Shown here piece after piece: positions 1-2,705 of a DNA stretch of 36,797 nt. The translations under genes were made by a program, and so were the position numbers. The notes below the pieces were generated by a model. The model saw only the letters and a list, made by a program, of their open reading frames with translations, searched no databases and had not been told where the DNA came from. The DNA is from Deltaproteobacteria bacterium (GTDB taxonomy: Bacteria; Desulfobacterota; Dissulfuribacteria; Dissulfuribacterales; QOAL01), in NCBI GenBank assembly GCA_015489315.1, contig WFZZ01000006.1:1-36797 (forward strand), given 5' to 3'. Position 1 is the first letter of the stretch; each line of letters opens with the position of its first letter.

Positions 1-246
1 AGTTACTACTGTGCGAAATGCATATATAACATCTTTAGGTATTTTTTTATTCCAATATTTACACTCACAAAGATAAACCATAGCAGGAGTACTACAAACA
101 TCCTCTACATATACATCGATTTTCTTGGTACCTCTTGCTAATTTAATCTCCTTTTCCAGTTCTGTTTTGCAACCAATTTCATCAAATAACTGCTTAACAA
201 GATCCTGTAATTCCTTCCAATTTTGTGGTTCCCTGTCAAAGATCAT
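1..246 (-). CDS. Restriction endonuclease-like (PD-(D/E)xK) protein, truncated by window start; probable integron cassette 2 gene
   Basis: Own translation of the minus strand from ATG at 246: MIFDREPQNWKELQDLVKQLFDEIGCKTELEKEIKLARGTKKIDVYVEDVCSTPAMVYLCECKYWNKKIPKDVIYAFRTVVT, open to the window edge. KIDVYVED...YLCECKYW matches the D...ExK nuclease signature. Confidence 0.7.
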   Translation of the reverse strand, partial: MIFDREPQNWKELQDLVKQLFDEIGCKTELEKEIKLARGTKKIDVYVEDVCSTPAMVYLCECKYWNKKIPKDVIYAFRTVVT

Positions 247-335
247 ATACTACCTTGCCAACATTTCTTTTAATTAGATTGGATCTCCAATAAAAGCTTT
301 CATGTTAATGAACTCTGAGATATTTGCAGCTAGTA

Positions 336-408
336 AGCCAACGTCCAGGGTCACTTGCCGCTGTGGAGCGCCAGCGGAACAGCGGTCAAGTGGACCCGTT
401 TGTTAGCG
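336..408 (-). repeat. attC: attC recombination site (integron cassette 59-be)
   Basis: Plus strand AGCCAAC(336-342)-GTCCA-GGGTC ACTTG CCGCTG-loop-CAGCGG[T386]CAAGT[G392]GACCC-GTTT-GTTAGCG(402-408). A 16-bp imperfect hairpin with two extrahelical bases (T and G) on the same arm, an unpaired spacer, and terminal R''/R' core boxes. Confidence 0.88.
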
Positions 409-424
409 AATAATATATTTTATT

Positions 425-619
425 TCAAGTGGATATATCCATTTTTAACACTTTGTCATGAATGTCTACAATCCCCAAACTTTTAATATCCCCTCTGATC
501 TTCTGAACCAATATCTCAAAATCTGAATCGCATGACGAAGAATAATAATCTTTTGCTTCCCATAATTCTTGTAATATATGATCTGTCTCTTTAATCTCAA
601 TATCTTCTTTTCTATTCAT
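425..619 (-). CDS. Small antitoxin-like protein paired with PIN toxin
   Basis: 64 aa ORF, overlaps the end of the PIN gene by 8 nt in the same orientation. The pattern ...ILQELWEAKD...CDSDFEILVQKIR... resembles small proteins often encoded next to this PIN subfamily. Confidence 0.6.
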   Translation of the reverse strand: MNRKEDIEIKETDHILQELWEAKDYYSSSCDSDFEILVQKIRGDIKSLGIVDIHDKVLKMDIST

Positions 620-1082
620 TGACTATCTCCTGTGGCGTACATATTGTCGGAACTACCAAACCTGCATCGAAAGAAATTTTCTGCAATTTTCGTATAAAGT
701 GAGCGTTAGCTAAGTGCCTACAATTCCACGTTAAAAGAAAATCCATTTGATAATGTGTTGCTATGGCAACATGTAACGCATCATCTCTAGCCTTTTCAGG
801 TAGCAGTGCTTTCCTAAAAAAGAGCTCTGCTAATTCAATACATTCCTTTGTGATTTTCAATACTTTAATTTCTTTTGCAACATCTATTCTCAACTTAACT
901 GCTCTTTCATCTCCACGTGAACATTCCGCCAACACCAATTCAGAAATGAAAATATTGTACTTATTTCTTTCACTATCCCACCAATCATATGTAATTTTTT
1001 GACGCGCAGCCGATATTAAATTATTACTCGGCCGTGCAACAAGATAGCTAATTATTGATGTTTCAATATATAAATATTCCAT
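612..1082 (-). CDS. PIN-domain protein, VapC-like toxin
   Basis: MEYLYIETSIISYL... (first acidic residue E7), LAECSRGD, KARDDALHVAIATHYQMDFLLTWNCRHLAN: typical PIN acidic-motif layout. Confidence 0.8.
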   Translation of the reverse strand: MEYLYIETSIISYLVARPSNNLISAARQKITYDWWDSERNKYNIFISELVLAECSRGDERAVKLRIDVAKEIKVLKITKECIELAELFFRKALLPEKARDDALHVAIATHYQMDFLLTWNCRHLANAHFIRKLQKISFDAGLVVPTICTPQEIVNE

Positions 1083-1126
1083 CTATTCCCTTTTGCATAC
1101 AGTTTGGCAACTTAATATAATTTTAC

Positions 1127-1421
1127 CGCTAACATTACCTTATTAGACATCATCGAAATTTTTTTAGCACGTAATAATTGTTGGAGCAAGGGAAAATTTT
1201 TGAGGCACTTTATTTCTGAACCTACTGAGTATGAATGATGTTTCGTTAAATTAGGTGCACTTTGCTTTTGCAGAATAGAAAAAGCATTGTAGAGCAATAT
1301 CAGATAATTAAGCAGCAAATGAAGTGATTTTTTTGACGTTAGACTGATATGGTTCAAGTACCTGTTTAAAATTCCACTTACAAAAATATTTGTTTAATGT
1401 TATGGTTATATTAAAAATATT
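1127..1421 (-). promoter_or_regulatory. attI: Probable attI region and divergent promoter zone between intI and first cassette
   Basis: Non-coding AT-rich DNA between the intI 5' end and the first cassette. Ends in core site AATGTTAGCGG (minus strand, 1133-1127). Confidence 0.6.
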
Positions 1422-1448
1422 TTGCTCAACACAATAAATTCTTGTGTC

Positions 1449-2705
1449 ATGAATAATAAAAAAAATGATATTTTTGATGATTTTGAAATTTTTTTGATAC
1501 AAAATAACTTTCCTGAAAGGCAAGTGCCGTTTTATGTTACATGGGTAAAGAAGGGGTTAAAGTTTTTCCGAAAAGGTTCTGGAGCAAGATTGAATTCCGA
1601 TGAAACTAATAGATTTTTGAAAAGTCTTTCTGAAAGGTTTTCCGACTGGCAGATCAGACAGGCTCAAGAGGCCATAAAACTTTATCATTTTTTTCTTGAT
1701 AAAGAATTGAATAAAGAAAAGGGTTTTCCTTCTCAGAACAAAAAGGCGTGGGATGAGTGCATTTCCAGAATGAAGAAAAGGATAAGGCTAAAGCACATGT
1801 CTTACCGAACTGAAAAGGCATATATTTCATGGGCTGAGAGATTTATGCACTTTACGGATTTTAAGGAGCCGACATCTCTCGCCAGCCATGATTTGCAAAA
1901 CTATTTGACGTACCTGGCAGTTGAAAGACAGGTTGCTCCTTCGACTCAAAATCAGGCATTGAATGCTCTGGTCTTTCTTTTTGGAAATGTCCTCGGCATA
2001 GATGTAAAAGATGCTATAGATGCTGTAAGGGCCAAGGAAAAAAGACGCCTTCCTGTAGTATTGTCTCAAGATGAAGTGCAAAGAATAATGGAAAATCTGA
2101 CAGGTGTTTACAAGTTGATAGGTAAGCTCATTTATGGATGTGGTCTTAGGCTTCAAGAAGCGGTGACGCTCAGGGTAAAGGATATTGACCTTAAAAGGCT
2201 GGTTCTAACAGTTAGACAAGGGAAGGGAGACAGGGACAGGGTTACGGTTCTTCCGGAAACTCTTGTTGAGCCTTTGAAAGGACACTTGGCAACCATCAGA
2301 AAAATTTATGAAAATGACAGGAAGGATGACATACCAGGTGTTTATCTTCCAACTGGACTTGAAAGAAAGTATCCAGATGCAGGAAAGAGCTGGGAGTGGT
2401 TCTGGGTATTTCCATCAAAAAGGCTTTCTGTAGATCCAATTTCAGTAGTTGTGAGAAGGCATCATATTAACCCTTCTGCCATGCAAAGGGCATTTAAAAA
2501 AGCAATAAAGGCAGCCGAGATACCTAAAAATGCAAGTGTCCATTCATTAAGACACAGCTTTGCCACACACCTTTTGGAATCAGGTTATGACATTAGGACA
2601 GTGCAAGAGCTTTTGGGGCACAAACATATCCAGACCACCATGATTTATACCCATGTTGCAAAGAAAAATATCCTTGGCGTGGTCAGTCCCCTTGATAAAA
2701 TGTAA
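1449..2705 (+). CDS. intI: Integron integrase (IntI-type tyrosine recombinase) with extra N-terminal domain
   Basis: TGLERKYPDAGKSWEWFWVFPS...DPISVVVRRHHI is the IntI-specific insertion. Catalytic residues: R in CGLRLQEA, K in RQGKGDRDR, HSLRHSF, LLGHKHIQTTMIYTHV. The supplied ORF begins at TTG 1422; ATG at 1449 is preferred. Confidence 0.95.
   Translation: MNNKKNDIFDDFEIFLIQNNFPERQVPFYVTWVKKGLKFFRKGSGARLNSDETNRFLKSLSERFSDWQIRQAQEAIKLYHFFLDKELNKEKGFPSQNKKAWDECISRMKKRIRLKHMSYRTEKAYISWAERFMHFTDFKEPTSLASHDLQNYLTYLAVERQVAPSTQNQALNALVFLFGNVLGIDVKDAIDAVRAKEKRRLPVVLSQDEVQRIMENLTGVYKLIGKLIYGCGLRLQEAVTLRVKDIDLKRLVLTVRQGKGDRDRVTVLPETLVEPLKGHLATIRKIYENDRKDDIPGVYLPTGLERKYPDAGKSWEWFWVFPSKRLSVDPISVVVRRHHINPSAMQRAFKKAIKAAEIPKNASVHSLRHSFATHLLESGYDIRTVQELLGHKHIQTTMIYTHVAKKNILGVVSPLDKM

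Follow-up and report, generated by a model that had tools for sequence, protein, structure and literature searches.

Does the left end of this stretch of DNA hold the integrase-proximal end of a chromosomal integron, and if so, how would cassettes enter it, what do they carry, and how did the integron come to stand where it does? The window, meaning the whole stretch analysed, is the complete contig C6 (36,797 bp, 41.5% GC) of G000, a draft MAG of 2.4 Mb in 266 contigs with 95% completeness. All comparisons were made with draft assemblies, and the window itself comes from a draft MAG. The genus set comprises nine genomes, namely G000 and eight congeners, and of 60 genomes searched, the source genome among them, 34 contained integron integrases. 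Our analysis indicates that the locus is almost certainly the integrase-proximal end of a chromosomal integron of a Desulfobacterota-type MAG. The integrase IntI would recombine the folded bottom strand of a cassette attC with attI at 1132/1133, and because IntI would join attC to attI at this point, new cassettes would be inserted beside intI in an orientation in which their genes point away from it. A candidate PIN-domain RNase toxin would be supplied by cassette 1, together with a small putative antitoxin encoded downstream of it, and cassette 2 would open with an Mrr-type nuclease. The features, with the evidence for each, are as follows:

1-341, minus strand: start of cassette 2, beginning at the R' crossover and cut by the contig end
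1-246, minus strand: first 82 aa of an Mrr_cat restriction-endonuclease-like protein (PF04471, 24.1 bits, cut-off 21)
336-408, minus strand: attC of cassette 1, with R'' at 402-408 and R' at 336-342 (covariance model, fold, complementarity, covariation)
342-1132, minus strand: predicted gene cassette 1, 791 bp, with the PIN protein, its 64-aa partner and attC (attC model, R'' rule, homologous cassette)
425-619, minus strand: conserved ORF of 64 aa, partner of the PIN gene, whose end it overlaps (frame conserved in homologous loci)
612-1082, minus strand: PIN-domain protein of 156 aa with a VapC-like RNase fold (PF01850, 30.6 bits)
1127-1133, minus strand: putative attI core site GTTAGCG (complementary at all seven positions to the R'' box of attC in cassette 1)
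1449-2705, plus strand: intI, integron integrase of 418 aa (TIGR02249, PF00589, PF13495, structure match, tree)
1467-1727, plus strand: extra N-terminal core-binding (SAM-like) domain of IntI (profile-profile match, PF13495, predicted model)

The 1132/1133 crossover, the 64-aa ORF and the extra N-terminal IntI domain of about 100 residues were not part of the initial annotation of this DNA.

Analysis of the integrase gene placed its product in the IntI family. The NCBIfam model TIGR02249 scored 431.7 bits against a cut-off of 265, while the XerC and XerD models stayed below half of their own cut-offs, and the Pfam domains PF00589 and PF13495 were both recognised. The closest solved structure, alike in sequence and fold, is Vibrio cholerae IntI4 (2a3v, E 8e-80), and residues of about 290-340 align through to 2a3v across the IntI-specific insertion before the patch III region; the initial annotation had described an IntI with the family-specific insertion, and both the family score and this alignment bear it out. 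The SWEWFWVFP and RRHH motifs are conserved, the catalytic residues R234, K259, H365, R368, H391 and Y400 are all conserved in the IntI alignment, and the ORF is intact; an alternative TTG start at 1422 would give a protein of 427 aa. A phylogenetic position outside the IntI clade would have spoken against the initial annotation. In a tree of 47 rows with two Xer outgroups, the window integrase falls within the IntI clade, apart from Xer (branch support 99), in a ten-member clade (support 98) whose other members come from other families, with the exception of that of the congener G005. Its relatives include MAGs titled Deltaproteobacteria and Candidatus Desulfofervidaceae. It is the sole integron integrase of the source genome above the TIGR02249 cut-off; three genomes of one genus of the same order (G040, G042 and G048) each hold 3-4 integron integrase genes or pieces. 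Tyrosine recombinases are common, and Xer-type hits occur on other contigs of the source genome, which would suit a Xer-like or phage tyrosine recombinase standing beside an unrelated palindrome. This reading is refuted by the family scores, far over the cut-off for TIGR02249 and far under it for Xer, by the position in the IntI clade, and by an independent attC match (E 1e-17) in divergent orientation with the cassette rule at 7/7, as described below, and its probability is negligible.

The integron integrase carries an additional domain. Residues 1-104 stand ahead of the usual IntI start, and the usual core-binding domain covers about residues 107-187. A profile of the N-terminal region matched the IntI core-binding domain with a probability of 94.8 (E 4.9e-8), against 0.9 for a control comparison with the catalytic domain, and it also picked up the second copy within the same proteins. 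Phage_int_SAM_4 (PF13495; cut-off 27) scored 16.6 bits on the extra domain of the window protein, under the cut-off, and 27.2 bits on that of the relative L059. The predicted IntI model has four helices at the N terminus followed by a second four-helix bundle (mean pLDDT 85.6); the overall pTM is only 0.57, so the placement of the domains in it is uncertain. These sequence comparisons show that the core-binding domain of IntI is duplicated, the N-terminal domain being the duplicate. The doubled domain was found in Desulfobacterota-type, Verrucomicrobiota and Gammaproteobacteria genomes, and in the open-licence full-text literature we found no description of a doubled core-binding domain, an N-terminal extension or a SAM-like domain in integron integrases. 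We suggest, tentatively, that the window IntI may represent a structurally distinct subfamily with a duplicated core-binding domain, in which the grip on attI or on the folded attC could change and lead to a site choice or activity other than that of single-domain integrases.

An Rfam scan of the window returned no hits, and attC models were therefore built in this analysis. Related attC sites were located first by a motif-and-fold scan made without reference to the window, which produced no hit in a 180-kb shuffled control, and nine scan-found sites of other genomes, none from the window, were used to build the covariance model R2. With filters off, R2 gave a single match of 69.7 bits (E 1.4e-17) in the window, and its coordinates, 336-408, are exactly those that the initial annotation had given for the attC. 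The single-strand DNA fold of this segment is more stable than expected (z = -3.6, with 0 of 200 shuffles as good). In a ten-site attC alignment, 12 of 25 pairs showed changes on both sides, with a covariation of 0.381 versus 0.143 in shuffles, a value favoured by the fact that the attC structure was partly derived from the same sequences. When the window attC served as a DNA query against the source genome, no strong match appeared elsewhere. The array runs divergently from intI, as initially described, with the PIN and Mrr_cat genes on the minus strand versus intI on the plus strand. The window attC also closely resembles, in sequence, one of the attC sites in the array of the congener G003, and the stem at L043:6194-6266 is nearly the same as that at 336-408, while the congener integrases are only about 42% identical.

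Analysis of the cassette boundaries showed that the R'' box of cassette 1 (CGCTAAC) pairs with GTTAGCG at 1127-1133 in 7/7 positions, which sets the probable attI crossover at the G1133/T1132 step and the limits of cassette 1 at 342 and 1132. This single core site, together with its complementarity to R'', is the basis of the attI assignment. In five related arrays, R'' perfectly complements its own cassette start in 11/11 cassettes, against a mean of 5.4/7 matches between the junction R' and the cassette start. Integrons of the same clade showed no convincing attI pattern outside the core site. No Pc promoter is claimed, because sigma-70 promoter matches lie near the shuffle expectation. Judged from the sequence, the integron anatomy and the cassette boundaries are thus well established, and the core site would probably function as attI.

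The array within the window amounts to one complete cassette and the start of a second. The initial statement that the array passes position 1 proved literally true: position 1 is the assembly end of contig C6, cassette 2 is cut there, and the contig ends after the first attC, the only one counted within the window. Contigs overlapping this left end were looked for in the genome and none was found. Among 98 other genomes the Mrr fragment has no relatives. In the related genomes G003 and G009, up to five tandem attC sites lie on one strand beside intI.

Homologues of the cassette-1 PIN protein are annotated as VapC family toxins, and the protein is a candidate RNase toxin. Homologous loci, five in number and as little as about 70% identical in DNA, preserve the 64-aa ORF in frame and at the protein level; it matched no Pfam family, antitoxin families included, and is a candidate antitoxin of the PIN protein. 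Comparison of the window with G031 revealed 21 synonymous and 11 non-synonymous codon differences in the PIN gene and 9 and 11, respectively, in the 64-aa ORF, which in this one pair suggests purifying selection on PIN and does not indicate it for the partner. The initial annotation had read the cargo as defence or stress functions. The PIN and Mrr_cat folds were supported, while PADLOC reported no named defence system in the cargo, and such functions are plausible for the cassettes. Cassette 1 also occurs, bounded by attC, in G031 and partly in G037 (another family). The G031 copy, which has its own attC, is 90% identical in DNA from the start of the G031 contig to window position 342, so that the edge of homology coincides with the predicted cut site. 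For the PIN protein, identity amounts to 93% in G031 and 88% in G017; elsewhere its homologues are patchy, fragmentary or of lower identity, and at E 1e-8 none was found in any of the eight congeners. These comparisons show that cassette 1 moved between families in the past, and since it is 90% identical across families yet absent from the congeners, the movement is suggested to be fairly recent.

This bears on whether the locus could be an inactive remnant, with an intact intI and one or two stranded cassettes at which recombination has ceased. Only one attC is visible, and the two further attC-like sites of the genome, at C197:4014-4093 and C63:1485-1568, are degenerate or isolated, as a remnant would have it; however, the intI ORF is intact with all catalytic residues, the attC has kept both its sequence and its fold, and the suggested recent movement of cassette 1 also argues against such a state, which we consider quite improbable. 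The integron is probably still active at present.

The further attC-like sites, both of them degenerate, lie on other contigs. The C197 site (L081), whose R' box is degenerate, is located between dapB and dapA, an interval of no more than about 50-80 bp in G001, G004 and G007, and the insert, at G000:C197:4014-4342, holds a ribbon-helix-helix antitoxin-like gene and the remnant of a PIN toxin. It is consistent with a single cassette that integrated away from the integron; cassette insertion at secondary sites has been discussed (PMC2426708). The dapA side of G000:C134:1-360 (L167) overlaps with C197 at 96% identity and its PIN gene is fuller, reflecting either strain variation or mixed binning. 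The C63 site (L080) is on a contig of 2.2 kb, where a DUF2283 gene lies downstream of it. Strong attC-like sites also occur in G002, G004, G025, G035 and G039, genomes in which no IntI was found, and some of these are isolated in long contigs, such as G025:C9:13583-13654 (69.5 bits).

Comparison of the nine genus genomes revealed that the block of MFS, hemB, response regulator and AAA ATPase genes is present in all of them, and that intI stands beside it only in G000 and G005; in the other seven, its place is held by other genes. The congeners G001, G003 and G007 carry an IntI of another clade, 42-43% identical to that of the window, with no MFS or hemB gene around it in the stretches examined. 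Monophyly of the IntI of the genus was rejected (p-AU 4.6e-7), for groups chosen after the identities had been seen. The restriction of intI at this locus to two of nine genomes, together with an IntI nearer to those of other families than to those of the congeners, would accord with a mobile rather than sedentary integron, brought recently by a transposon or genomic island. This is nevertheless rather unlikely, as the intI-MFS junction is common to the two species, with protein identities from 93% (IntI) to 99% (neighbours), and the right side of intI is ordinary chromosome (hemB, guaA, dnaE) with no transposase recognised among the ORFs of 150 aa or more. The integron would either have been gained at the MFS-hemB locus in the common ancestor of G000 and G005 or have been lost there by all other congeners. 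The congeners thus carry different, non-orthologous integrases yet nearly the same attC sites.

Desulfobacterota are among the integron-bearing phyla and toxin-antitoxin cassettes are typical of integrons (PMC8618304), and an attC model for Deltaproteobacteria has already been published (PMC8352920); the integron described here is therefore of a known type. Here a full unit of integrase, attI and cassette is documented for an anaerobic lineage that has been little studied and in which integrons are common, with a cassette common to two families whose homology ends at the predicted cut site. The sedentary chromosomal superintegron of V. cholerae (IntI4/IntIA) shares with the window the IntI family, divergent cassettes, lineage-similar folded attC sites and toxin-antitoxin-like cargo, but its integrase is without the extra N-terminal core-binding domain. 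IntI1 and IntI3 of the class 1 and class 3 integrons are 48.7-49.8% identical to residues 103-418 of the window IntI and have the catalytic fold in common with it; unlike the window integron, they are without the extra domain, mobile and associated with resistance cassettes. The IntI of a Candidatus Desulfofervidaceae MAG (L059), a member of the same ten-member clade, is 57% identical and has the doubled core-binding domain; its locus differs from the window in that model R1 found no attC sites in the flank examined. The integrase of the Candidatus Thiodictyon syntrophicum plasmid pTs485 (WP_269467352.1, 454 aa) is 40% identical over 98% of the length, the N-terminal extra domain included, and its gene adjoins small PIN-like genes; unlike the window integrase, it is plasmid-borne, belongs to the Gammaproteobacteria and falls outside the ten-member clade. 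The doubled core-binding domain represents a concrete, testable difference between the window integrase and the well-studied IntI1, IntI3 and V. cholerae IntI.
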